From Kangiella geojedonensis (GTDB lineage Bacteria > Pseudomonadota > Gammaproteobacteria > Enterobacterales > Kangiellaceae), in NCBI RefSeq assembly GCF_000981765.1, contig NZ_CP010975.1, positions 1,178,001 to 1,242,000 of the forward strand: a DNA stretch of 64,000 nt, given 5' to 3'. A model generated the notes under the pieces. That model had not been told where the DNA came from, did no database searches, and worked only from the letters and a program-made list of their open reading frames with translations. The translations under genes and the position numbers were made by a program. This document shows positions 25,838-40,031 of this stretch, one piece after another (position 1 is the first letter of the stretch; each line of letters starts with the position of its first letter).

Positions 25838-25870
25838 GCCGCATGCGCTAGGTGCTATGCGGCGCATTTT
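25838..25870 (+). terminator. Terminator after the tatD-family gene
   Basis: GCCGCAT (25838-25844), 12-base loop, ATGCGGC (25857-25863), then GCATTTT. It ends the fab-tmk-holB-tatD block, one base before the protease promoter motif. Confidence 0.65.
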
Positions 25871-25885
25871 CTAGGGGTTTTCCCC
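25871..25885 (+). promoter_or_regulatory. Palindromic regulatory site, copy 1 (protease 1)
   Basis: CTAGGGG-TTTT-CCCC, 11 bases before a TTATAT -10-like hexamer and 66 bases before the protease ATG. The spacing would put the palindrome over the -35 position, as for response-regulator boxes that replace a -35. Confidence 0.65.
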
Positions 25886-25951
25886 AATATTATTCTTTAT
25901 ATGGTTTGTTCATAGTGGTTAGCGTTAAATAAATAACGATAGGACCAAACT

Positions 25952-28012
25952 ATGAAAACTAAATTTAAAATGCTTTCAGCTTGTGTATTAACAGCGTTAG
26001 CCGGGGGTGCTCAAGCAGACGCGATTATTGGCCCAGATCTACAAGAAATGTTGCCAAATTTGCTTGAAAGCAAGAAAGTAATTATCACGACTCATGATCG
26101 TAGTGACCTTGATTCTGTGATGCTACAAGTTAATGCTCCTTACTTGAGCATGCAGGCTTTGCCGATGGCAGGCGCTTCGCTTAATAAGTTGCAAATCATG
26201 AATCTGGCGAACGATGATCGTGTTAAAAGCATCTACTACAACAAACCACTTGAGTATTTCAATTACACTTCTGCAGAAGTCACTGGTGGCCACTATGTGC
26301 ACGACGTGGAAGGTGTTACTGGCCAAGGGGTTACAGTTGCAATCCTAGATTCGGGTGTTGATGGTACCCATCAAGACTTACCTATGGGCTCTAAAGTTAT
26401 CGAGAATGTTAAAATCTTAAGCGACTTAGACTTGCTCGGTGGTAGCAACTACTTTATTGAAGGTGTTCCAAACACAGATACAAGCTCTGGTCACGGTACT
26501 CACGTGGCAGGCACAGTAGCGGGTTCTGGTGCGGCATCTGCGATGGATGCACGTCGTGCGAATTACCATGACGGTATTGCTCCTAATGCTAATTTAGTGG
26601 GCTTGGGTGCTGGTGAAGGTATCGCAATGCTGCAAACAATCGGTGGTTTTGATTATGTTATTGCTAACCGTGAACGTCTAGGCATTGATATTGTGAATAA
26701 CAGCTGGGGTACTAGTGCTGGAGCTTTTGATCCAAACAACCCAGTGAACCAAGCATCATACGAAGCTTATAAGAAGGGTATTGTTGTAGCATTTGCGGCA
26801 GGTAACGATGGTCCGGGTGATGACACTGTTAACCCATACGCTATCGCTCCTTGGGTGATCAACGTTGGCGCAGGTAACCCTGATAAAGAATTAGTCGACT
26901 TCTCAAGCCGTGGTGTTGAAGGTGATACGTTCAAGCATGTTGATATTATTGCTCCAGGTAGCGGTATTATTTCAACCCGTGCTGCTAATACACCACTTCC
27001 TGCGCTTAGCCCTGTAATTGAGCCTGATTACCCAGATTACTACTTACACTATGCAGGTATGAGTGGTACGTCTATGGCGACGCCATTTATCGCTGGTGTT
27101 GCGGCATTATTACTTGAAGTGAACCCTGATTTATCGCCTGACCAGGTTGAAAGTATCATTCGTGACTCAGCTGATGAGATGCCTGGGTATAAGTTCCATG
27201 AAGTTGGTGATGGCTATGTTAATGTCAAAGCAGCAGTTGAGCTTGCGCGAAATACAGAAGGGAATCGCCGTGACTTCTTGAATGGTCAAACGGCTTGGTC
27301 TAGCCAAGGTTATTGGAGAGATGTCGATCAGTCGGACTCAAATATCGACTATACATCACGCTGGAAGCTTGTGAACTCAAGCGATAGCTTCGGTGGTTCT
27401 TACTTACAAACCAAGAAGCGTGGCTCTAAGGCGATGTTCGACTTCATGGGCGAAGGCATGCAACTTGTTTATCAAGCTAACGAGCAAGGTGGACGTGGCG
27501 AGCTTTTTGTTGACGGTCGCAGTTACGGTATTGTGGACTTTTATAGCCAGTCGCCAGAGACTCGTACATTTGCTGTACGCGATCTTTCAGCGCAAGATAT
27601 TCATTCAGTAGAGCTTCGACATGTTCAAGGTAAAATTAACCTTGATGCTTTAAAAGTTGACGGTCAGTTGATCGATAACGGTATGTCAGTGGTAACTGAA
27701 GAGTTTTATGTTGAAGGTACGATTGGTCCATCAGCTGAAAACGTTCAAACACAAGACTTCCGCTTCTATGCTGACGACTCAGTTGCTTTTATTGAGTCAG
27801 ATCTAAGCTGGGAAGGCGTTGCAGACCTTGACTATGAGCTTATTGACCCAAATGGTGAGTCGGTAGCTTCAAGCGCAACATTGGGCAACCCTGAAGTCAT
27901 TGGGTATTCGCCAAATGAGGCTGGTTATTACACGCTTCGTGTGAATGGCTACGCTAGTGTGTTGACGAACTATCGTATTAACACAACCTTATCTAAGTTG
28001 GTACAAAACTAG
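25952..28012 (+). CDS. Secreted S8 subtilisin-like protease 1
   Basis: A 686-residue exported serine protease. The signal peptide covers about 1-23 (ending AQA) and an I9-like prodomain about 35-110. The peptidase S8 domain has the catalytic Asp133 (LDSGVDGTH), His181 (SSGHGTHVAG) and Ser374 (SGTSMATP). After residue 430 comes a beta-rich region (about 440-570) that looks like a carbohydrate/lectin-like accessory domain, then a PPC-like C-terminal domain (about 590-683). Unlike proteases 2 and 3 it has no SLH-like repeats. A strong terminator follows. Likely role: extracellular protein digestion. Confidence 0.93.
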   Translation: MKTKFKMLSACVLTALAGGAQADAIIGPDLQEMLPNLLESKKVIITTHDRSDLDSVMLQVNAPYLSMQALPMAGASLNKLQIMNLANDDRVKSIYYNKPLEYFNYTSAEVTGGHYVHDVEGVTGQGVTVAILDSGVDGTHQDLPMGSKVIENVKILSDLDLLGGSNYFIEGVPNTDTSSGHGTHVAGTVAGSGAASAMDARRANYHDGIAPNANLVGLGAGEGIAMLQTIGGFDYVIANRERLGIDIVNNSWGTSAGAFDPNNPVNQASYEAYKKGIVVAFAAGNDGPGDDTVNPYAIAPWVINVGAGNPDKELVDFSSRGVEGDTFKHVDIIAPGSGIISTRAANTPLPALSPVIEPDYPDYYLHYAGMSGTSMATPFIAGVAALLLEVNPDLSPDQVESIIRDSADEMPGYKFHEVGDGYVNVKAAVELARNTEGNRRDFLNGQTAWSSQGYWRDVDQSDSNIDYTSRWKLVNSSDSFGGSYLQTKKRGSKAMFDFMGEGMQLVYQANEQGGRGELFVDGRSYGIVDFYSQSPETRTFAVRDLSAQDIHSVELRHVQGKINLDALKVDGQLIDNGMSVVTEEFYVEGTIGPSAENVQTQDFRFYADDSVAFIESDLSWEGVADLDYELIDPNGESVASSATLGNPEVIGYSPNEAGYYTLRVNGYASVLTNYRINTTLSKLVQN

Positions 28013-28032
28013 AATCCCTGCGGTAATCAATT

Positions 28033-28055
28033 AGGGCCTTCGGGCCCTTTTTTTT
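28033..28055 (+). terminator. Terminator after protease 1
   Basis: AGGGCC, a TTCG loop, GGCCCT, then eight Ts. Confidence 0.93.
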
Positions 28056-28105
28056 GTGATGTCAGTCACGGTTTGTTGGGTTTTGGGGCAAATGGTGCTG
28101 TTTGT

Positions 28106-28120
28106 CTAGGGGATATCCCT
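28106..28120 (+). promoter_or_regulatory. Palindromic regulatory site, copy 2 (protease 2)
   Basis: CTAGGGG-ATAT-CCCT, 11 bases before TATCTA and 85 bases before the protease 2 ATG. Same arrangement as copies 1 and 3. Confidence 0.62.
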
Positions 28121-28205
28121 CATTCCAAATGTATCTATTCTCAGGTCAAATAATAAATATTAATAACAACGATAACTATCGATAATCTAAGTGGAGCTAG
28201 ATACT

Positions 28206-30674
28206 ATGAATAAATCTTTATCAACATTGGCTTTATCTGCTGCTTTAGCAGGTTTTAGCCTTAATGCTGCAGCTGACGCCGTTATTGGTAGTCAACTTCA
28301 ACAAGACCTTTTGAATATAAACCCTACCGATTCTGTCATGGCCGTTGTCACCTTTGACCAAATGGACAAAGTAAACAGTAGCCAAATGCAACAACTATTA
28401 AATTTAGGCCTAAGCGAAGGGGTGCAGTTCCAGTCGTTACCTATCGTTGGTGTACAGGCCACGCCTGCACAAATTCAAGCGATTGCACAGCTAGACGGCG
28501 TTCGTTCTGTATTCGCTAATCGTAGCCTAGAGTATTACAACGCAGAATCTCGAGTGATTACTGGCGTTGACCGTGTACAAAGTGATGAGTTCAGAGCACT
28601 GAACGGTACAACTTACACGGGTAAAGGCGTAACGATTATGGTGAACGACTCTGGTATCGACGCAACTCTTGATGATCTGGAGTTTGGCACCAAAGTCGTA
28701 CAAAACGTCCAAGCGATTACACACGCGCAAGCATTAACCCTAACGCCAGTTCGTGGTACTTGGATTGAAGATCAATTGAACACTGACTTGAATGTTGGCC
28801 ATGGTACTCACTGTGCAGGTACAGTGGCAGGTACTGGCGCACACTCAGACGGCAAGCATAAAGGTGCTGCACCAGATGCTGACCTTGTTGGTTACGGTTC
28901 GGGCGCTGGATTATCAATTCTAGATGCTCTCGGTGGCTATGATTACGCACTGACTCACTTATACGATTTCAACAGCCCAATACGAATCATGAGTAACTCA
29001 TGGGGCTCAAGCGGTAAGTACGAGCCAGACGGCCCAATTTCAGTATCATCTTATATAGCTTACAAGCAAGGGATGCTGTCGGTGTTTGCTGCTGGTAACT
29101 CAGGTCCTGGTGAAGATACCAACAATCCATACTCTCAAATCCCTTGGGGTATGTCGGTTGGTGCTGGCACTAAGAGCGGCACGCTAATTGACTTCTCTTC
29201 CCGTGGTAAAAAAGGTGAAGAGGGTACCTTCACAATGCCAGATGGTGAAGAGTGGACTTATAAAAATGAAGTTTCTATCGTTGCTCCTGGTGTTGATATT
29301 ATTTCAACACGCGCTAAGACAAACGTCGTGTCCAACGGTGGCGCAGACGATGTGGACGCTATCGAAGCTGAATACCTCCCTTATTACACCATGATCTCAG
29401 GTACATCGATGGCAACACCTCATGTTGCAGGTATTGCTGCGGTCATGTTGGAAGCCAATCCAAACTTGACGCCAATCGAGATTAAAAGGTTGATGATGGA
29501 AACAGCGACTAACATGCCGGGTTATGAAAAATGGGAAGTTGGTGGCGGTTACGTTAACGCAGAAGCAGCAGTAGCTGCGGCGTTGAGCTTCGACACTGAT
29601 TACGACGTTACGGTTAATAACCTTAATGAATTTAACGCTAACGCAATTTTGATCCCTTCAGATGAGCCCATCCCATTCTCGGTTAACTATATTCCGGTGG
29701 GTAATCCTGATGAGTATGAGTTTTATGTTGGTAAAGACGTGGCCTTTATTTCTGCCTCAGCAGAAAACCTCGCGAATACTACCAAATTAAAATTAACAGC
29801 CCCTGATGGTACTGAATACTTTGGTAACTTAACACTTCCGGTGTTAGATACCGCTATGCGTGTTTCAGCTCCTGGTCAGCAAGGTATTTGGAGTATTTCT
29901 GGTTACGGTATGACTTCGCTTTCAGGCGTAGAACCCGATCCACTAGGGATTACGAATGGTCCGGGTGTCCCTGATGTGATTTCTGGTGAGATTACTCTGA
30001 TTGAATCTGGCGGTTTCGAAGGTCTTAATGATATTTCTGGCCACCCTGCAAAAGGTGCTATTGAGTTTGCAGTGAGTGAGCGTCTGGTTGACGGCAACAC
30101 TGACGGAAACTTCCTTCCAGGTGCCGCTCTAACTAAAGGTGACCTATCGAAATACCTAGTGATGGGTGCAGCTGTTAGACAATATCGTGATTTATTGAAC
30201 CAGCCAAGCATCGGCTTTACCGATGTATCTGGTAGTGATGCCGCGTTTGCAGAAGCAGTGAGCGCACCAGCTGGAGCTCTTAAAGACGCACAGCGTACAC
30301 AGGATGCCGTAGTGAGAACTTCTGGTTTTGAGTTTGATGCAAATGCCACCGTTAACCGTGCTGAACTAGCGTACTCTTTAGTACAGACCCTAGGTTTGCA
30401 AGCAGAGGCAGAGCAGTATGCAGATAGTGATATTACTGTTCAATATAATGGTCAAGCGGTACCAGTGGTTGACCAGAACTCTATTCCTATGGAACTGCGA
30501 GGCCACGTACAGGCGGCGTTGAACTTGTCACTGCTGAGCGTTGAGTTTGATATTGAACAAGGTCCGTTTGACCTGCAACCCACTTTGGTTGCTCGCTTCA
30601 AACCTTCAAACACAATAACCCGTGGTGAGTATGCCGTAATCATAGCTAGAACTTACGATAGCTACTACCAGTAA
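28206..30674 (+). CDS. Secreted S8 protease 2 with SLH-like C-terminal repeats
   Basis: An 822-residue protease. The signal peptide covers about 1-24 (ending AAA) and an I9-like prodomain about 35-115. Catalytic residues are Asp148 (NDSGID), His199 (VGHGTHCAG) and Ser401 (SGTSMATP). A beta-rich linker follows, then three SLH-like repeats between about 605 and 818. The clearest reads GHPAKGAIEFAVSERLVDG; the last covers the final 60 residues. It is paralogous to protease 3 along its whole length. The ATG at 28206 gives a normal signal peptide, and an upstream GTG would spoil it. Followed by a long hairpin. Confidence 0.93.
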   Translation: MNKSLSTLALSAALAGFSLNAAADAVIGSQLQQDLLNINPTDSVMAVVTFDQMDKVNSSQMQQLLNLGLSEGVQFQSLPIVGVQATPAQIQAIAQLDGVRSVFANRSLEYYNAESRVITGVDRVQSDEFRALNGTTYTGKGVTIMVNDSGIDATLDDLEFGTKVVQNVQAITHAQALTLTPVRGTWIEDQLNTDLNVGHGTHCAGTVAGTGAHSDGKHKGAAPDADLVGYGSGAGLSILDALGGYDYALTHLYDFNSPIRIMSNSWGSSGKYEPDGPISVSSYIAYKQGMLSVFAAGNSGPGEDTNNPYSQIPWGMSVGAGTKSGTLIDFSSRGKKGEEGTFTMPDGEEWTYKNEVSIVAPGVDIISTRAKTNVVSNGGADDVDAIEAEYLPYYTMISGTSMATPHVAGIAAVMLEANPNLTPIEIKRLMMETATNMPGYEKWEVGGGYVNAEAAVAAALSFDTDYDVTVNNLNEFNANAILIPSDEPIPFSVNYIPVGNPDEYEFYVGKDVAFISASAENLANTTKLKLTAPDGTEYFGNLTLPVLDTAMRVSAPGQQGIWSISGYGMTSLSGVEPDPLGITNGPGVPDVISGEITLIESGGFEGLNDISGHPAKGAIEFAVSERLVDGNTDGNFLPGAALTKGDLSKYLVMGAAVRQYRDLLNQPSIGFTDVSGSDAAFAEAVSAPAGALKDAQRTQDAVVRTSGFEFDANATVNRAELAYSLVQTLGLQAEAEQYADSDITVQYNGQAVPVVDQNSIPMELRGHVQAALNLSLLSVEFDIEQGPFDLQPTLVARFKPSNTITRGEYAVIIARTYDSYYQ

Positions 30675-30689
30675 GCTATTGTTATATAT

Positions 30690-30719
30690 AGTAAAGCAGG
30701 GGGTTATCCCTGCTTTACT
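30690..30719. repeat. 12-bp perfect hairpin carrying a copy of the protease palindrome
   Basis: AGTAAAGCAGGG (30690-30701), GGTTAT, CCCTGCTTTACT (30708-30719). It may be the terminator of protease 2, though the T run after it is poor. Its centre reads GGGG-TTAT-CCCT (30700-30711), matching the core of the palindrome found before the three proteases. It is 137 bases from the ATG of the next gene. Confidence 0.6.
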
Positions 30720-30848
30720 GTTGGTTTTAAAGAGTAAGAACTTGTTGCAAAAAGAGTTAAATAAAAGTATTTTGATTGCATGCTCTTTATTACAAAAAGT
30801 AATGTTGTTTATGTAGTAAAGAGCGTTTTAGCTCACTGGAGGTACATA

Positions 30849-31679
30849 ATGTCAAATTTCCTTAGCCGCTTAGCGGTTACCATTGTTGCGTGCGGCATAT
30901 TTATGAGTGCACAAAGTTCACCGGTTGAATTGACCATCAATGGAGGAAAGAAAGTAGAAGCAGTTATTGAACTTGCTGGAGGCATCGAAGCCGATTTTAC
31001 GATCAGTTTTGAGAATGCCATTGGTTTAAACGAAAACAGCATAGGGTTAACGGCTGAAGTTATTGATATAACCGACCTCAGTATTCTAAATCGCTTGCCA
31101 TCAAGCCTTAATACAAACCTATTGTCGGCTTTTCCAATGCTAATCACTGTAGAGCCACCTTCAGGTCAAGGCTTATCTTTTGAAGGATTAGTTACGGTTG
31201 ATATCCATACACACAACCTAGAATATACCGCTGGAACTCCGCTGAGGTTGTTTAAAGCGCCACTGGGTGGTCAGTTTAAAGATATCACCATGACTATGGG
31301 CTCGGGCAGCTATCGTGCTCGTGGTACCACCGGAAAATTCTCGCAATTCTTGATTTTGGCGGATCTTAGATTGCCAATCACAGTTGTGAATACGAAGATG
31401 AGTAACTTATCGAGTGCGTTGAGCGGTTTTTCATCACAAATGTCTTCCGTAACCTATACGTCACTCAACGCCAAATTAACAGAAGTACAGCAGTTGATTA
31501 CTCAGCAAAACTACACTCAAGCTAGCAACAAACTGAATGAATTTAAGCAGTTAGTTGAAGCCTCTAGCGGCGTTGATATTCCAGATGTGTGGCGTTCAAG
31601 CCGCGATATCGACAATGTGGCGGGTGAGTTGATGGCGTTAGCGAATACGCTTCGCTTTAGTTTGCGTTTGATTAATTAG
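30849..31679 (+). CDS. Secreted protein of unknown function, first gene of the kinase operon
   Basis: A 276-residue protein I do not recognise. It has a signal peptide (about 1-22, ending SAQS), a beta-rich first half containing SFENAIGLNENSIGLTAEVID and a GLSFEGLVTVDIHTHNL strand pair, and an alpha-helical C-terminal third (about 180-276) with heptad-like Leu spacing, suggesting a coiled coil. The ATG at 30849 follows CTGGAGG. The next gene begins 15 bases later, so it is probably co-transcribed with the FHA-GAF, kinase and two-component genes. Exported and so placed, it could be a sensor ligand or a co-regulated factor; this is inference. Confidence 0.8.
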   Translation: MSNFLSRLAVTIVACGIFMSAQSSPVELTINGGKKVEAVIELAGGIEADFTISFENAIGLNENSIGLTAEVIDITDLSILNRLPSSLNTNLLSAFPMLITVEPPSGQGLSFEGLVTVDIHTHNLEYTAGTPLRLFKAPLGGQFKDITMTMGSGSYRARGTTGKFSQFLILADLRLPITVVNTKMSNLSSALSGFSSQMSSVTYTSLNAKLTEVQQLITQQNYTQASNKLNEFKQLVEASSGVDIPDVWRSSRDIDNVAGELMALANTLRFSLRLIN

Positions 31680-31694
31680 TGAGGTGTTGAGATT

Positions 31695-32594
31695 ATGCCA
31701 GCCAGAATAACGGCTTGTTATCCTGATATGCCGGCTAAGGAAAGCGTACTTTTTGAGAACTCGCAGTATCAGGTCGGGAGAGACCATGATTGCGAGGTCA
31801 GGCTAAATCATCCTAGTGTGTCGAGAAAGCATGCCTTAGTGAATGCCCGTGATGAGCATTGGTATTTAAAAGATGGCTTAAGTTCAAATGGCGTTCGTAT
31901 TAATGGGAAACCGATTGAGGGTGGTCAATTGTCTTCAAACGATGTCATCTCATTGGGTGAAATCGATTGTTTGTTTGAGCTTAAGACTAAACAGCAGCTT
32001 GACTCTATAACTGCCCATAATGAGTGGAGAATTCAGCAATCTAGAAAGTCGTATAATGAGTTAGCTCGTCAATCGTTGCTTGATGCGCTTGATGAACAAC
32101 TCTATTCACTGCTTAATCTGACAGGCACTCAACGTGGCTTGGTTATGCTAGGAAACTCGCCTGAAACTTTAACTGTTTGCGCGTCCAAAGGTATGACGCA
32201 ACAAGATTTTCATAGCAAATCTTTTGAGGGTAGCGTCGGCGCGATGCAACGAGCCTTACAACAGCGTAGCCCAGTGCTTGCTATGGACGTAAAGTTAGAC
32301 CATTTATTGGCCTCGCGAGAAAGTATTCAGCGTAAGCAAATAGCAGCGCTAGCTTGCATCCCGTTGCTGGCTGATAATAACTTAGTTGGAGTGGTTTATA
32401 CTGACAGTAAAGAGTCCAACAAGGTTCTAACTGAACTTGATTTAGAAATCCTCAACTTAGTTTCTGAGCAAATCAAAATAAATTCTGAAGCTATTGTTTT
32501 ACAAAACGAAATATCTGCTATATTGAGTAATATTCCGGAACATATATTTGCCGAACAACAACCAATTAAAGAGCAAATATTAGCAGTACACTAG
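31695..32594 (+). CDS. FHA-GAF domain protein
   Basis: A 299-residue soluble protein. The FHA domain (about 1-95) has the phosphothreonine-binding residues Gly28, Arg29, Ser43, His46 and Asn65-Gly66. A GAF domain (about 125-275) follows, with GLVMLGNS and LACIPLLADNNLVGVVYTDS strands. FHA domains read Ser/Thr phosphorylation and GAF domains often bind small molecules. Directly before a Ser/Thr kinase gene, it is a likely partner or reader of that kinase. There is no membrane segment. Confidence 0.88.
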   Translation: MPARITACYPDMPAKESVLFENSQYQVGRDHDCEVRLNHPSVSRKHALVNARDEHWYLKDGLSSNGVRINGKPIEGGQLSSNDVISLGEIDCLFELKTKQQLDSITAHNEWRIQQSRKSYNELARQSLLDALDEQLYSLLNLTGTQRGLVMLGNSPETLTVCASKGMTQQDFHSKSFEGSVGAMQRALQQRSPVLAMDVKLDHLLASRESIQRKQIAALACIPLLADNNLVGVVYTDSKESNKVLTELDLEILNLVSEQIKINSEAIVLQNEISAILSNIPEHIFAEQQPIKEQILAVH

Positions 32595-32654
32595 AAAGAG
32601 TCGTACTTCCTGAAAACTACTATTTTTGGCTATTAGCCACAGGAGCGCAGATTA

Positions 32655-35600
32655 ATGGGGCATGATGACTTAGATCAAAATACTAAGTCCGGTTCGTTAA
32701 AAGAAACGCAGATATTATCCAAACCAGCGACCCTCGAGACTGACTCTGTTTTGGTGGGGCGTTTTAAAATTCAATCACTTCAGGGTTGTGGTCGGTTTGG
32801 ATGCGTCTATAAAGCTACAGACTTACAGCTTGACTCCAATGTCGCTATTAAAGTGCTTCACCAGCACCTAGTATCTGAAGCTTCCTTACGCGTATTTAAG
32901 AATGAAATTCTGACACTTCGACAACTGTCGCATCCCAATATAGTCCGCGTTCATGAGTATTATGAAGATGAGCATATCCACTTTATCACCATGGACTGGA
33001 TTCAAGGGGATACGTTAAAAGACTGGATAGAGCAACATACAGTCACCGAAGAGACCCTAAATGACTTTACCGGGCAGATCTTGTCTGCGTTAGAGGTCAC
33101 AGAATCTAAAGCCATTAGCCACAAAGATCTCAAGCCAGAGAATATCCTAATTGATAATAATCAGCATCTTTATATTGCTGATTTCGGGATCGCTAGCGCG
33201 GTGGGTGATAAGGCTTCTGCTGTCATCACAGGTACACCGCTGTATTCACCCCCTGAGTACCTTGAGTCAGGCAAATCAGTAGCGTCGATTGATATTTATG
33301 CTTTCGGCTTGATCCTGTATGAGCTGATTACAAAAAAGCTGCCATACCATGCCCAAACTCAAGAAGAGCTGATTAAAGAAAAGCTTTCGTCACAAAAAGT
33401 TAAGTTTGAGAAAAGGTTTACCCGATACGAAAAGCTTGTACAACGCTGCATCGCTCCCTTGGCGGATTCACGACCAAAAACTGCTTCAGAAGCAAGAAAG
33501 CTCATTGATGCAAGCCAAGATAAGGGTATGAGTCGACAATCAAAGCTAACAGCTATCAGCGTAGCTACAGTGTTATTGGCTTTGATTGCATCAGGGCTAT
33601 ACTTTTTTCGTGCTGATAATTTGGGGGGAAAGAAGCTGATAGGCGCTAAGCAATTAATAGAGGCGCAACAAGAGGGTGTGCAGTCATTAGCTGTGTTACC
33701 TTTTGACACCAAATCGGCGGAAGCCTGGTTAATTGATGGCTTACCACATTTGCTCTCCGATGAACTCTCCCAAATTTCAGACTTAAGAATTGTGGGGTAC
33801 GAGCGTTCACGAGAGACTATGGATTTGCTCGGCTATCAAACACCTTTGGATGAACAAAAACTAAAAGTCATTAGTGATCTTACGCAGAGCACTTACTTGC
33901 TGAACACCAAATTAGTTCCAATTGGCCCCAACCGCTACCAAGTTAATGCTGAGTTAATACGAGTGGCTGGTAACACGGTCGAAACGTCCGATATTATCCA
34001 GTTCCAATCGAACAAGGAAAGTTTAGCGCAAGAGTTTTCGTCATTGGTCGTTGCTGTGAATGAACAGTTTGGACTGGAATCTCTTGATACAGAGTTATAC
34101 CTTCCTCAAGGTGTTCACCTTGAAACTATTTCTGAGGTAGAAGTTCTGTTGAAAAATGGCGAGGATGCTAGAGCAAAGGAGCTGCTAGAGAAATTATTAA
34201 ATTCTGAGGCTGAGTACAGTAAAGGCTGGCTATTACTAGGGCAGCTTGAAGCATCGATAGGCAGTATTTTAGAAGCGGAATCTGCATTTCAAAAAGCAGT
34301 AGAAACGTCGCCACAAAACTCACTGGTTCGTAATCAGGCGCAAGCAGAACTACAGTTGCTGGCTGGCGACATTGACTCAGCCATAGAGACTTATCGCAGC
34401 ATTTTACAACGACTTCCAAACAATAGTGATATTCGTCTAGAACTAGCGCAGCTTCTTATCCAGCAGCAGTCACTTGAAACGGCCAAGCAAGAGTTAATTA
34501 CCGTTGTAGAAAGCGACGAGAATCACCCTATAGCCTGGTATGAACTATCAAAAGTTGCTATCTGGCAGGGAGAGACTCAGGAAGCAGTTGATAATTATTT
34601 GGTAAAAGCCTTAGTCACTGCAAAGAAGCTTAAAAATACTCAACTTCAAGGTGATGTGCTTAATGCCTTTGGTGTTGCCCATCATCGCCTGGGGCAGCTG
34701 GATCTGGCTTTGGACTATTACAAGCAAGGATTGACCGACCGAAAAAAGGTGAATGATTCTCGGGGTATTGTTACAAGTCTCTCTAACTTAGCTTCTGTTT
34801 ACGCGGTAAAAGGTGAGTATCAACAAGCAGAGCAAAACTTGTTACAAGCATTAGAAACAAACAAGTCTAGAAACGACGCTGTAAAACAGGCTGACTTATT
34901 TAATGAACTCGGGGTCATTGCTGAGGAGCAAGGTCTATACTCGAAAGCATTGGAGCACTTTCAATCTTCTCTGAGTATTCGTATGAAGCTTGATGATGAT
35001 TGGTTGAAAGCTGAAAGCCTGAATAATGTCGCTTATATTTTCTTCCTACTTTCCGATGAAGAGCAAGCCACTATTTATTGGGAACAAGCTAAAGCTTATT
35101 ATGAAAAGGTTGATGACCCGGTAGGCGTGGTTCGTGTTAATGAAAACATGGCACAGCTTGAGTTACAAAAGGGCAATTGGCAATCGGCTTACCGCATGTA
35201 TCAGTCTGCTTTAGAGAAGTCTGAAGAGTTGAACCTGACGGAAGAAACCATTGTTGCACAAGCTTATCTCGCAAAAATTGCTTTCTTGCAAGGCAATTTT
35301 GAGCAGCCTCCATTACAACTCAATGATATTAAAACTGAGCTTAAAGATCGCCAAGATGTACGAGGGCAGGTGGAGTTTGGATTGTGGTTGACCGACTGGT
35401 CTATATCTACTGGCGCATACCAACAGGCAGAATCGATTCTAGCGGAACTGATGCCTCTCATGGAGCAAGAAAAAAATCGTTCTCAACAATTAATCTACAA
35501 CACGTTGGCTTCAAGGCTAAGCTTATATCAAGGCGATGACTTGCCAATTGCTTCGAATCAAGAGTTTGAGCAAGTGACTTCAAAAGCGGCGCTGGAGAGC

Positions 35601-36062
35601 TTAGTTCTTCAGCTAGAGGCGCTGTTATTCAGTAACACAATGCAGGAAGGTGCGAGCGATAAGTTTTTAGTGGTTAGTCAAGAGTTTGACCAGTATGATT
35701 TAGACTTACATCGCTATTTCTTACTGAGAAAACTCATTCTGTTGGGCTACTACCATGCACAATCCGGTGATGATGAGGCGCTAAAAACGGTATTAGACCA
35801 ATTAACTATGCTAAAGCGTGGCGTTGGTACTTACTGGAGAAATTATCAAATAGAACGATTAGAAAGTATTTATTACGGCATGATAAAAAATTCAGAAAAA
35901 GCCCGCGAAAGTGCACTAAAGGCGTTAAAAAGTTTTACCGAATTAAAACAACAATTACCAGAGCAACAACAGCAACATATTATTTCATTGCAAGGACGTT
36001 ATTTTTCAGCAGATCAATCGAAAGATGATTTTTTTATGGAGCAAGTCAATGACAAAGAATGA
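32655..36062 (+). CDS. Membrane Ser/Thr protein kinase with FlgO/TolB-like and TPR sensor region
   Basis: A 1135-residue protein. The Hanks-type kinase domain covers about 36-290: glycine loop GCGRFGCV, Lys66 (VAIKVL), HKD catalytic loop His156-Asp158 with KPEN, Asp176 of DFG, and GTPLYSPPEYLE. A single membrane helix spans about 298-317. The outside part opens with a TolB/FlgO-like strand (SLAVLPFDT, about 343) and then carries many TPR repeats up to about 900. All key kinase residues are intact, so it should be active. Its end overlaps the histidine kinase gene by 14 bases, which ties the two signalling types into one unit. Confidence 0.93.
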   Translation: MGHDDLDQNTKSGSLKETQILSKPATLETDSVLVGRFKIQSLQGCGRFGCVYKATDLQLDSNVAIKVLHQHLVSEASLRVFKNEILTLRQLSHPNIVRVHEYYEDEHIHFITMDWIQGDTLKDWIEQHTVTEETLNDFTGQILSALEVTESKAISHKDLKPENILIDNNQHLYIADFGIASAVGDKASAVITGTPLYSPPEYLESGKSVASIDIYAFGLILYELITKKLPYHAQTQEELIKEKLSSQKVKFEKRFTRYEKLVQRCIAPLADSRPKTASEARKLIDASQDKGMSRQSKLTAISVATVLLALIASGLYFFRADNLGGKKLIGAKQLIEAQQEGVQSLAVLPFDTKSAEAWLIDGLPHLLSDELSQISDLRIVGYERSRETMDLLGYQTPLDEQKLKVISDLTQSTYLLNTKLVPIGPNRYQVNAELIRVAGNTVETSDIIQFQSNKESLAQEFSSLVVAVNEQFGLESLDTELYLPQGVHLETISEVEVLLKNGEDARAKELLEKLLNSEAEYSKGWLLLGQLEASIGSILEAESAFQKAVETSPQNSLVRNQAQAELQLLAGDIDSAIETYRSILQRLPNNSDIRLELAQLLIQQQSLETAKQELITVVESDENHPIAWYELSKVAIWQGETQEAVDNYLVKALVTAKKLKNTQLQGDVLNAFGVAHHRLGQLDLALDYYKQGLTDRKKVNDSRGIVTSLSNLASVYAVKGEYQQAEQNLLQALETNKSRNDAVKQADLFNELGVIAEEQGLYSKALEHFQSSLSIRMKLDDDWLKAESLNNVAYIFFLLSDEEQATIYWEQAKAYYEKVDDPVGVVRVNENMAQLELQKGNWQSAYRMYQSALEKSEELNLTEETIVAQAYLAKIAFLQGNFEQPPLQLNDIKTELKDRQDVRGQVEFGLWLTDWSISTGAYQQAESILAELMPLMEQEKNRSQQLIYNTLASRLSLYQGDDLPIASNQEFEQVTSKAALESLVLQLEALLFSNTMQEGASDKFLVVSQEFDQYDLDLHRYFLLRKLILLGYYHAQSGDDEALKTVLDQLTMLKRGVGTYWRNYQIERLESIYYGMIKNSEKARESALKALKSFTELKQQLPEQQQQHIISLQGRYFSADQSKDDFFMEQVNDKE

Positions 36063-36777
36063 TGAAATAAGCAAGATGCTTGATGCGTTAAGTCTTAAAC
36101 AAAATCAAATTGCAGAAAATTTAGCCAGCGGCAACACTCAAATGCGTAGCCTGGCTAAGCGAGTCTGGCGTGTACAAGAAGATGAACGTAAACATATTGC
36201 ACGCGAATTACATGATGGTGTTGGGCAGCTACTTACGGCGCTAATCAACCAAATTGAGTTGACTGCCAAAGAAGAAGCGTCTGATGAGACTTTAAAAAGC
36301 TTGCACGACAGTTTGGATTTGGCTCGTCAAGCTTTAAGCGATACACGAAAAATTTCTCGACTGATGCGACCAAGAATCTTAGATGATTTAGGTTTAGAGC
36401 CTGCGCTTAAATGGTTAACACGAGTTATGCGTGAGGAAGAAAAAGCTGATATTGCGTTAGAAACTCAGTTATCTCATGAGCTTGATGGGGAAACTCAAAC
36501 ATTGGTATTTCGTGTTGTTCAAGAGTCTATTACGAATGCGATTAAGCACGCTGAGGCTGAACATATCAAAGTACAGGTTGTGTCTCAACCGAGTTTATTA
36601 ATGGTTAAAGTTACTGATGATGGCGTTGGTATGGATACCGAAGTTGCTTTAGGGCCCGATGGTTTTGGTTTATCTGCGATGCAAGATCGCGTTGCTGCCT
36701 TTGGTGGGCAATTAATGATTCAATCAAAACTTGGTGAGGGCAGTGAAATTAAAATGTTACTAGTGGGGAATAACTAA
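36049..36777 (+). CDS. Soluble NarL-type sensor histidine kinase
   Basis: A 242-residue histidine kinase with a HisKA_3 domain, phospho-accepting His55 in RKHIARELHDGVGQ, and a HATPase_c domain (QESITNAIKHAEAEH N-box, DDGVGMD G1 box, GFGLSAMQDRV). It has no membrane or recognisable sensor domain, so input must come from another protein, probably the FHA-GAF protein or the membrane kinase. I used the ATG at 36049 with GGAG upstream; it overlaps the kinase gene. The response regulator starts 2 bases after its stop. Confidence 0.92.
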   Translation: MTKNDEISKMLDALSLKQNQIAENLASGNTQMRSLAKRVWRVQEDERKHIARELHDGVGQLLTALINQIELTAKEEASDETLKSLHDSLDLARQALSDTRKISRLMRPRILDDLGLEPALKWLTRVMREEEKADIALETQLSHELDGETQTLVFRVVQESITNAIKHAEAEHIKVQVVSQPSLLMVKVTDDGVGMDTEVALGPDGFGLSAMQDRVAAFGGQLMIQSKLGEGSEIKMLLVGNN

Positions 36778-36779
36778 CT

Positions 36780-37415
36780 ATGATCCGTGTGCTACTAGCC
36801 GATGATCACACTATATTGAGGCAAGGTTTGGTCAGTATTCTTGCTAAAGATGATGACTGCATGGTGGTTGGAGAAGCGTCCAACGGTGTTGAGGCGGTCG
36901 AGAAAGCATTCGAGCTAGAGCCACAAATTGCTGTTATCGATATTAGTATGCCTGAGTTAAACGGTATGGAGGTGGTAAAACGTATCCATCAAAAGCTTCC
37001 CGATTGTCGAATATTAGTGTTAACCATGCATGAAGAAGAAGAATATGTCATTCACATGGTAAGAGCCGGAGCATCAGGCTATTTATTAAAAGATAGTGCA
37101 AGTGAGGAATTAATCCAAGCAGTCAAAACACTGGCTAGTGGAAAAAGTTATTACAGTCAATATGCCGCTCAAGTATTGGCCAACCAATACACGCAGCCAG
37201 ACAAATGGAGTGATCCATACAAGAATTTGACCAAACGCGAGCGTGAGGTTTTTCACCTTGTGGTCGATGGTAAAACCACCAAAGAAGTTGCTAAAGCTCT
37301 CGACATCAGCGTTAAAACTGCTGAAAACCATCGAGGCAAAGTCTTGGACAAGCTCAAGGTGGCAAATTCTGCGGAATTAGTTAAGTATGCGGCGCAGCAT
37401 AAATTGTTGATCTAA
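36780..37415 (+). CDS. NarL/FixJ-family response regulator
   Basis: A 211-residue regulator with a receiver domain (acidic pocket Asp8-Asp9, phospho-acceptor Asp54, Lys about 104 in LLKDSA) and a C-terminal LuxR-type helix-turn-helix (LTKREREVFHLVVDGKTTKEVAKALDISVKTAENHRGKV). It is the cognate partner of the adjacent histidine kinase. It is the best candidate to bind the CTAGGGG-N4-CCCY palindromes before the three proteases, since regulators of this family bind short inverted repeats. This link is inferred from location. Confidence 0.94.
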   Translation: MIRVLLADDHTILRQGLVSILAKDDDCMVVGEASNGVEAVEKAFELEPQIAVIDISMPELNGMEVVKRIHQKLPDCRILVLTMHEEEEYVIHMVRAGASGYLLKDSASEELIQAVKTLASGKSYYSQYAAQVLANQYTQPDKWSDPYKNLTKREREVFHLVVDGKTTKEVAKALDISVKTAENHRGKVLDKLKVANSAELVKYAAQHKLLI

Positions 37416-37474
37416 AAGGACTTTTCAAAGAATATTGGTCGTACCTCTTTAACTAGGTAGTAACGATAATTTTT

Positions 37475-37489
37475 CTAGGGGTTTTCCCC
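37475..37489 (+). promoter_or_regulatory. Palindromic regulatory site, copy 3 (protease 3)
   Basis: CTAGGGG-TTTT-CCCC, identical to copy 1 over 15 bases. It is 11 bases before CATCTT and 49 bases before the protease 3 ATG. It lies 60 bases after the response regulator gene. Confidence 0.65.
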
Positions 37490-37538
37490 GATACCCAGCT
37501 CATCTTGTTTCATGGCATGCTCATTTAGGAATTACTAA

Positions 37539-40031
37539 ATGGGTAAACAAAACATGAAAACAACATCACTTTTTAAATCAAAACCGTTACAGGCAGCAAT
37601 GCTTGCAGCGGGACTTGGCGTCACTTCTTTAGGCTTGTCAGCAAAATCACTAGGTCCTCAATTAAGCGAAATGCTTCCTACAGCATCTGAAGCTGAAGTG
37701 TTTGAGGTCATTGTTACTTTTGAAGGCGAAGGTCCTGCATCACCTCTTCAGTTAAACGCACTAGAACAGCTAGGCGTTACTTCGGGAGTGAGCTTACAGA
37801 ATGTTCCTATTGTGGGTCTTTTAGCCACAAAATCACAAATTGATGCGATTTATTCACGAGATGACGTTCGCTCGGTATGGCATAACTCTGAATTGACTTA
37901 TGACAACCAAGGCGCAACACAAATCACGGGTGTGGATCGCTTACGTGCTGATAGAAGCTTACGTAGTCAAGGCATGCCATTCTCAGGCCGTGGTATTGGT
38001 GTTGTAGTTAATGATTCTGGTGTTGATGGAACTCACCCAGACCTAAAATATCCTAACCACGTTGTACAAAACGTGTTAGCACAAACTAACTTACGCTCGT
38101 TTAGCGATCTAGCTCCAATTACGTATCAAGAGAACATCGCCAACACTGATATCGGTGGCGGTCATGGTACACACGTTGCAGGTACTATCGGTGGTAATGG
38201 TAGTATGTCGAGCGGTGAGCAAGAAGGTGTTGCTCCTGGTGCTAAAATCATTGGTTATGGTTCTGGCGCTGGTTTATTTATTTTAGATACGCTTGGCGGC
38301 TTTGATTACGCGCTTAGTCATCAATTCGAGTACAACATCCGTGTGATTTCGAACTCTTTCGGTAGTACTAGTGATGTTGGCTCTGACTTCAACCCAGACC
38401 ATCCAACAAACGTCATCACTAAGAAACTAAGTGATAACGGCGTCATCGTTGTGTTCTCTGCCGGTAACTCAGGTAACGGCGAAGGTACTATTACAGGTAA
38501 CTTCAAAAAAGCACCATGGGTCGTAACCGTTGCGGCAGGGGATAAAGATGGTAATTTAGCAGATTTCAGTTCACGAGGCGTGAAAGGTAAGGGCGGCACC
38601 GTTGAAATAGACGGCGAAACGTTTGAATGGGTTGATCGCCCAACTATCACAGCGCCAGGTGTTGATATTGCTTCAGCTCGTGCATCGCTAGGCAGTACTT
38701 CATGGTTAAGTATTGATAGTGATATTGATTTACTACCGCCAGCACAAGTTCCTTACTATACACACTCTAGTGGTACCTCAATGTCAGCGCCACATATTTC
38801 TGGCGTAGTTGCTTTGATGCTAGAAGCTGACCCTTCATTGAATTGGAGAGATGTGAAACGCATTCTTCAAAATACCGCTACTAACATGCCTGGTCTAGAG
38901 CCATGGGAAGCTGGTGCGGGTTATGTAAACGCATATGCAGCAGTAAAAGCAGTCCTTGAAGAAAGCCAAGATTTTGGTCAAACGACCAAGATTAACCGTG
39001 ACTTCAACGCGGCTTCATTAACGTCTTTAGCGCGTGACTTTCCGACTAGCGTTCCATTTGCTCCAGCAGGAGATAACCCTGGAACAACTTTCAACGTAGA
39101 CGGTGATATTTCACTGGTTATGGCGAGTGCACAAGTTCCTGATAACACCGTTGCTCTTACGTTAACCAGCCCTACAGGCAAGCGTTATGGTTCAAGCATT
39201 GCTCTTCCAGTATTGGGTGAAAACATTGCTGTCGTTGCTCCTGGCGAGCCAGGCGAGTGGGTTATTAAAGCAGGCGGTATTGGTTCTGTATCTGGCGTTG
39301 CTCTTGACCCAGCAGGTGTGACTAATGGTTACGCTGCTCCAGGCACTATCCAAGCGAATATCAAAATGATTCGTACTGATGGTTTTGTTGGTCTAGATGA
39401 TGTTGTAGGTCACCCAGCGCAAGGCTTCATTGAGCATGCGGTAAGCGAGCAACTGGTTGATGGTACTGCCAATGGCTTCAAACCGGATCGTTTATTAACT
39501 CGTGCTGAAATGGCTGACTTCCTGACACTAGGTGCGGGTATCCGTCAGTCGAATGACGCTGCGGACAAAACATTTATTGATGTCAAAGCTGCTAACTCAG
39601 CAAGTGTCAACGCTGTGACGCAGACGGGTGGCGCATTAAAAGACCGTGAGCAAACACAAGCTCCTGTAATGTCTGGTAGCGCCTCAACCTTTGACCCTAA
39701 AGGAAAAGTCAGCAAGCTTGACGTGGCTTATTCATTAATGCAGTCACTAGGTTTAGAAGGCGTTGACTCTAGTTACGATGGCACCAACCTAACAGCAACA
39801 TTTGGTGATGAGCGAGTTGTCATTGCTGACCAAGATATGGTTCCAGAAGGTCTTAAGCATTATGTACAGCATGCGATTGACCGTGGTGTGCTAGGAGTAA
39901 GCTTCAGTGTTGAGCAAGGACCGTTTGACCTAGAGCCTACTATCGTTGCTCACTTCTCTCCTCAAGAGTTGATGAGCCGCGCAGACTTTGCGGTAGCAAT
40001 GAGCCGTTACTACTTGTCGCAAAGCAATTAA
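37539..40031 (+). CDS. Secreted S8 protease 3 with SLH-like C-terminal repeats
   Basis: An 830-residue protease, paralogue of protease 2. The signal peptide covers about 1-36, with a long basic n-region. An I9-like prodomain precedes the S8 domain with Asp159 (NDSGVDGTH), His209 (GGHGTHVAG) and Ser414 (SGTSMSAP). A beta-rich linker follows, then SLH-like repeats (about 614-675, 687-745, 767-827). One reads GHPAQGFIEHAVSEQLVDG. AGGA sits eight bases before the ATG at 37539; a second ATG five codons in is possible. Directly downstream of the two-component genes but with its own regulated promoter and terminator. Confidence 0.93.
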   Translation: MGKQNMKTTSLFKSKPLQAAMLAAGLGVTSLGLSAKSLGPQLSEMLPTASEAEVFEVIVTFEGEGPASPLQLNALEQLGVTSGVSLQNVPIVGLLATKSQIDAIYSRDDVRSVWHNSELTYDNQGATQITGVDRLRADRSLRSQGMPFSGRGIGVVVNDSGVDGTHPDLKYPNHVVQNVLAQTNLRSFSDLAPITYQENIANTDIGGGHGTHVAGTIGGNGSMSSGEQEGVAPGAKIIGYGSGAGLFILDTLGGFDYALSHQFEYNIRVISNSFGSTSDVGSDFNPDHPTNVITKKLSDNGVIVVFSAGNSGNGEGTITGNFKKAPWVVTVAAGDKDGNLADFSSRGVKGKGGTVEIDGETFEWVDRPTITAPGVDIASARASLGSTSWLSIDSDIDLLPPAQVPYYTHSSGTSMSAPHISGVVALMLEADPSLNWRDVKRILQNTATNMPGLEPWEAGAGYVNAYAAVKAVLEESQDFGQTTKINRDFNAASLTSLARDFPTSVPFAPAGDNPGTTFNVDGDISLVMASAQVPDNTVALTLTSPTGKRYGSSIALPVLGENIAVVAPGEPGEWVIKAGGIGSVSGVALDPAGVTNGYAAPGTIQANIKMIRTDGFVGLDDVVGHPAQGFIEHAVSEQLVDGTANGFKPDRLLTRAEMADFLTLGAGIRQSNDAADKTFIDVKAANSASVNAVTQTGGALKDREQTQAPVMSGSASTFDPKGKVSKLDVAYSLMQSLGLEGVDSSYDGTNLTATFGDERVVIADQDMVPEGLKHYVQHAIDRGVLGVSFSVEQGPFDLEPTIVAHFSPQELMSRADFAVAMSRYYLSQSN

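Follow-up and report, generated by a model that had tools for sequence, protein, structure and literature searches.

A palindrome shared by three subtilase promoters of Kangiella geojedonensis as the probable operator of a NarL/FixJ-type response regulator

Introduction

In the genome of Kangiella geojedonensis (2.5 Mb, a single contig), three genes for S8 peptidases of the subtilase type, called here S1, S2 and S3, are each preceded by a palindrome of the form TAGGGG-N4-CCCY-N-A, and they share an island with the gene of a NarL/FixJ-type response regulator. Is the palindrome the site through which this regulator governs the three proteases, and how would it do so? We addressed the question in a window of 64,000 nucleotides (the whole stretch of DNA analysed, contig NZ_CP010975.1, positions 1,178,001 to 1,242,000), starting from an initial annotation of the sequence; all coordinates are window positions on the plus strand unless stated, and G and L numbers designate genomes and loci of our samples. 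The island is flanked by the genes of a TatD nuclease and an acyl-CoA dehydrogenase and has the order S1, S2, DUF6689, FHA-GAF protein, Ser/Thr kinase-TPR, histidine kinase, NarL-type regulator and S3. From comparative sequence evidence, it is very probable that the palindrome is the operator of the regulator encoded in the island, and that it serves class II activation of the subtilases together.

Results

The string CTAGGGG-N4-CCCY is found without mismatch at 25871-25885, 28106-28120 and 37475-37489 and nowhere else in the window, as first annotated, and the three genes downstream are all Peptidase_S8 according to Pfam. At up to two mismatches the number of matches, 10, is close to the 8.7 expected, so that only the exact ones stand out. 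The core pattern GGGGNNNNCCCY gives 6 strand-matches, located at 4 places, where 0.57 would be expected; none of 100 shuffled sequences reaches this number. The operator matrix was built from 37 sites, 36 of them from Kangiella (the three of the window among them) and one from G027; the 5 proximal S1 sites of Kangiella clade 2, which are imperfect, were left out. With it, the operator of S1 (CTAGGGGTTTTCCCCAA, 25871-25887) scores 27.4, that of S3 (CTAGGGGTTTTCCCCGA, 37475-37491) 26.9 and that of S2 (CTAGGGGATATCCCTCA, 28106-28122) 25.3, while the next best place in the window reaches 8.2, the readings of the operators on the other strand (12.5-13.8) being set aside. That GGGG and CCC do not vary in these 37 sites was dropped as evidence because the sites had been picked by a pattern demanding these letters. 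A weaker copy had also been proposed at 30700-30711. It corresponds to the loop and the upper part of the stem of a terminator-like hairpin located after S2 (30688-30721, 15-pair stem, T-rich tail) and was rejected as an operator; at this place close relatives keep a GCAGGG...CCCTGC hairpin whose loop differs, and the hairpins of more distant Kangiella are different ones.

The distribution of the site among 20 Kangiella genomes follows that of the regulator. The island is present in 12 of them and absent from 8. A regulator orthologue, 83-100% identical, was found in these 12, the other 8 having at most 36% identity among the matches listed, and the island subtilases occur in the same 12 genomes and not in the other 8 (S2 is missing from G005, and in G003 the contig breaks off within S3). 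In seven island-free genomes, 95-100% complete, 0.1-4.1 kb separate the TatD and dehydrogenase genes, and no gene of the island was detected in the interval; little can be concluded from the eighth, G002, which is only 55% complete. A motif search of related genomes, suggested in the initial annotation, was carried out with TAGGGGNNNNCCCY and gave 60 strand-matches in the 20 genomes, 35 of which could be assigned by position to island promoters. TAGGGGN4CCCY is thus present in 35 of the 36 Kangiella island promoters, the exception being S1 of G005, which reads TGGGGG. A site precedes S1 in 12/12 Kangiella islands; in the five genomes of clade 2, which have two sites there, it is the distal one that matches exactly. 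The remaining 25 matches lie elsewhere, 19 of them in the 12 regulator-bearing genomes and 6 in the other 8, and do not exceed the 40 obtained with a reversed control pattern.

The association extends beyond the genus. A scan of named genomes based on the regulator gave seven islands (Cognaticolwellia, Colwellia, two of Pseudoalteromonas, Marinicella, Rheinheimera and Arsukibacterium). In each of the seven, the S2 and/or S3 orthologue present on the contig is preceded by the site, with an imperfect tandem pair of sites at S2 of Rheinheimera. The S2 operator is kept in Kangiella, Colwellia, Pseudoalteromonas and Marinicella, and that of S3 is likewise kept across genera. In a sample of 394 genomes of the order, 14 have an S3-type subtilase, namely 11 Kangiella, G027, G406 and G475, and every one of these has a regulator match (83-100% identity in the 11 Kangiella, 66% in G027, 64% in G475 and 42% in G406). 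In G406 and G475, despite a changed gene order, the subtilases are preceded by sites that score 13.5-20.4 (better strand). On other contigs G027 carries two additional S8 genes with a same-strand site, scoring 15.4 (L266, ~1417) and 15.0 (L293, ~3606), so that its regulon may be dispersed. Finally, six mostly Xanthomonadales loci that include the region before DUF6689 (L167 is without it) have a site there in 6/6 cases, which is the best of the locus in 5/6; Rheinheimera also has a site before DUF6689.

The protein that the palindrome would bind has the domains expected of the family, a receiver (PF00072, 2.8e-28) and a LuxR/GerE helix-turn-helix (PF00196, 3.5e-18), both above cut-off, and its gene adjoins that of a HisKA_3-type histidine kinase (36025-36777). 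The solved chains nearest to it by sequence are DevR (3c3w) first, then also VraR and NarL, and its nearest named relatives are all from Kangiella. It is neither the NarL equivalog NF007935 (161.4 bits for an NCBIfam cut-off of 250) nor the MctR equivalog NF052445 (199.9 bits for a cut-off of 300). Of 20 usable regulators, 18 retain the KTAENHR sequence of the recognition-helix region, the exceptions being L163 and L038 (distant homologue); 4 of the 12 Kangiella regulators were used in this count and the L268 row was left out.

The positions of the sites relative to the promoters were examined by anchoring each promoter at the palindrome nearest to the gene and counting offsets from the base after CCCY. 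At S1 the hexamer CATAGT (25911-25916), taken as the -10, lies at offset 25, counted from the proximal site, and is identical in 12/12 genomes. At S3 an N-A-N-N-N-T hexamer is found at offset 25 or 26 in 19/19 cases, with TGn ahead of it in 17; in the window this is the putative extended -10 TG-G-CATGCT (37513-37521), at 26. Six of seven promoters outside these tallies, from G475, G406 and G027, fit the same offset rule. The seventh, S3 of G475, misses it at the site used and was counted as a miss, although a weaker site 23 bp downstream, noted only after the count, would fit. The initial annotation had placed the -10 only 11 bases downstream; the hexamers TTATAT, TATCTA and CATCTT are indeed there as letters, but N-A-N-N-N-T at offset 11 or 12 occurs in 2/12 S1, 0/17 S2 and 3/19 S3 promoters, and this -10 was rejected in favour of the conserved hexamer at 25 or 26. 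If that hexamer starts at -12, the palindrome is centred at about -43, and at S1 and S3 it would not cover the -35 position, as had been supposed, but abut it from upstream. No -35 could be recognised: the mean best match to TTGACA (11 representatives) was 2.7/6 against 3.0 in shuffled spacers. The sites of class II activator promoters lie near -41.5; the palindrome at S1 and S3 would occupy a class II activator position in front of a promoter without recognisable -35.

A second, degenerate site beginning with CTAGGT was detected upstream of the main one, 23 bp away at S1 (25848-25864) and 22 bp at S3 (37453-37469); in clade 2 (five genomes) the distal S1 site is a complete palindrome. In a score scan of 18 representatives the tandem spacing peaks at 22 and 23 bp, at a height reached by none of 1000 single-base shuffles. 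These features also bear on another explanation, that the palindrome works in RNA, as a leader hairpin or an attenuator: GGGG-TTTT-CCCC can pair, and further inverted repeats are present downstream in the leaders. We regard this as very improbable. A one-mismatch scan keeps the GGGG-N4-CCCY core free of mismatch at the promoters listed, where an RNA stem would tolerate paired changes; the distal CTAGGT, which cannot pair, is kept at a fixed 22-23 bp; and with a conserved -10 downstream of it, the palindrome should not be transcribed from this promoter at all.

Whether the sites are specific to the island subtilases was assessed with 30 S8 loci from 5 genomes, out of 81 domain matches listed. 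The 8 island S8 genes of this sample all have strong sites, and 20 of the 22 non-island loci have no site scoring at least 12, the two exceptions being the G027 genes mentioned above; the loci reached 1.5 kb past the domain match, so that a promoter far upstream could be missed. In the K. geojedonensis genome as a whole GGGGNNNNCCCY occurs at 24 places, and among these five non-island ones score 13.1-21.5. This would be expected if the palindrome were a product of chance or a repetitive extragenic palindrome, an explanation that is scarcely credible given the excess over shuffles in the window, the matches outside the islands, which stay at or below the control, and the conservation across genera. 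The place scoring 21.5 is the promoter of a small lipoprotein gene (genome ~1793405-1793505; L082 1501-1600; 1793502), with the copy CTAGGGGAAAACCCTTA upstream of the gene. A TTGCAT-16-TTATAT arrangement lies downstream of the copy, whose centre would be near -61, a class I distance. This site is strong in G000, G001 and G005 and weaker in G014 and G002. The lipoprotein as a fourth target of the regulon is unproven, since the 55% complete G002 has the weaker site with no regulator found. The other extra-island matches inspected showed no common target.

A number of observations weigh against the palindrome being the operator of a class II-activated subtilase regulon. As to the distribution, the S3-bearing genomes and the regulator genomes coincide, and no S3 genome without regulator was found for testing. 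The Xanthomonadales sites are weaker (12.6-20.6), and L169 has a slightly higher score elsewhere; G425 (L233), with a regulator at 58% and DUF6689, has no site scoring at least 4 in the 3.9 kb examined. The regulatory operon of Kangiella is itself without a site: none was found within 260 bases before DUF6689 in 13 genomes (12 Kangiella and G027), where the best matrix score, 11.8 in G014, is the hairpin. The individual scores of the five non-island places (13.1, 13.4, 16.8, 19.0 and 21.5) mean that a score of 12 is not unique to island sites in the K. geojedonensis genome. As to the geometry, S2 fits offset 25 or 26 in 2/17 cases only, many of these promoters having a GATAGY-like hexamer at 23; both of the Xanthomonadales S2 promoters examined fail the rule; and no distal site was seen at S2 in the same upstream scan of representatives. 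The proximal S1 site of clade 2, from which the -10 was counted, is imperfect (T-R-GGGG-CTTT-ACCY), and the distal S1 site of G006 (clade 2) is both in the tandem test and among the matrix sites. The generic -10 profile (18 representatives) peaks at offset 24, with a maximum reached by 18 of 500 shuffles; because this profile is weak alone, orthologue conservation and the promoters outside the tallies were used instead.

Activation of the proteases by the NarL-type regulator of the island through the palindrome is well supported by co-occurrence, conservation and position; the geometry first attached to it, offset 11 and overlap with the -35, is not supported. We infer a course of events in which the phosphorylated regulator dimer would bind the main site, centred near -43; the regulator is predicted to bind the TAGGGGTTTTCCCC fragment. 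The weaker site 22-23 bp, i.e. two helical turns, upstream at S1 and S3 may be occupied by a further dimer or half-dimer. The bound regulators would then recruit RNA polymerase to promoters whose -10 is weak or extended and whose -35 is not recognisable, transcription would start downstream of the conserved hexamer, and the subtilases would thereby be turned on together. Upstream of these steps, the histidine kinase and the FHA-GAF protein may act on the regulator, which the Ser/Thr kinase of the cluster may modulate. NarL-type regulators are able to repress as well as to activate, and the binding is predicted from sequence; it is conceivable, though not likely, that the palindrome is an operator at which the regulator represses the proteases, or which another, unlinked regulator binds. 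Repression is disfavoured by the position at about -43, the missing -35 and the extended -10 at S3, all of which suit an activator. An unlinked regulator is disfavoured by the fact that no other protein of the island has a Pfam match to a DNA-binding regulator domain, and that site, regulator and proteases are gained and lost together.

The genes of the island were delimited as follows. S1 (25952-28012) encodes an S8 subtilase with a PPC domain, and S2 (28206-30674) and S3 (37554-40031) encode S8 subtilases with an SLH match; all three are probably secreted, judging by eye from their signal-like N-termini. The Pfam matches of S2 were obtained on the open reading frame from 28191, its most likely start being the ATG at 28206. 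For S3, read from 37539, relatives indicate that the ATG at 37554 is most likely the start: in clade 2 the first ATG runs directly into a stop, and the stops seen in three relatives disappear with the later start. With the revised starts the site-to-start distances are 66, 85 and 64 bases for S1, S2 and S3. Inverted repeats in the leaders, which are possible mRNA stem-loops, differ between clades: CGTTA...TAACG is found before S1 (window 25923-25938), and AAGTCA...TGACTT before S2 in other Kangiella.

The regulatory operon begins with the DUF6689 gene (30840-31679, start inferred; Pfam match on the open reading frame from 30780). This protein accompanies the regulator in different families, 20 aligned sequences having 37-85% identity to that of the window; its predicted structure (mean pLDDT 88.2) comprises a strand-rich part and long helices, and a literature search on DUF6689 found nothing. 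In G005, from which the S2 gene has been lost, the operator and leader of S2 remain (C1:183008-183021) and now stand upstream of the DUF6689 operon. Then come, by Pfam, the FHA-GAF protein (31695-32594), the Ser/Thr kinase with TPR repeats (32655-36062), whose identity within Kangiella, 38-84%, is far below the 83-99% of the regulator, the histidine kinase, which has HisKA_3 (PF07730) and HATPase (PF02518) with no sensor domain matched, and the regulator proposed to bind the palindrome (36780-37415; Response_reg, GerE).

Discussion

The combination of a NarL-type regulator, a palindromic operator and a small regulon is of a kind that is well known. NarP sites are described as 7-2-7 inverted repeats (PMC7380067, PMC1802743). 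Similarly, the Kangiella site can be read as two TAGGGGW heptamers with 2-bp spacing, and the regulator belongs to the same family by its domains. It is unlike NarL in staying under the NCBIfam cut-off given above, and its heptamer differs from that of NarL.

Another parallel is offered by DevR, or DosR, whose promoters have closely packed boxes bound cooperatively, the start-proximal one overlapping the -35 (PMC3029386); Ser/Thr kinases also act on DosR (PMC12919924). DevR is the nearest solved relative of the Kangiella regulator, and tandem sites 22-23 bp apart are found here too, at S1 and S3 and not at S2. In comparison with the box overlapping the -35, the proximal site in Kangiella would be centred at about -43, judging from the conserved hexamer. 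The operator sequence, the organisms and the targets (subtilases) are different, and so is the signalling part, with a histidine kinase without matched sensor domain, a GAF domain on a separate FHA protein and a Ser/Thr kinase in the cluster. We found no description of the regulon, the operator or the cluster in the literature, of which coverage was partial and included few subscription journals; when literal operator strings were searched there, only the short string CTAGGGG matched among the matches listed.

A broader proposal can be put forward tentatively, and we would give it somewhat less than even chances: the island may be an autonomous protease switch that different families and orders of Gammaproteobacteria have in common. 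In it, the Ser/Thr kinase and the FHA-GAF protein would feed a sensorless histidine kinase and the regulator. The regulon would be tiny and made of secreted subtilases, with one tandem operator wherever the genes lie, including the G027 S8 genes on other contigs and possibly the Kangiella lipoprotein promoter at a class I distance.

What the analysis provides is a candidate operator, together with a candidate regulator and a list of targets, for a system that sets a Ser/Thr kinase next to a two-component pair. The system occurs not only in Kangiella but again in Pseudoalteromonas and Colwellia and, probably, in Xanthomonadales. The operator could serve as a simple reporter in the search for the signal.

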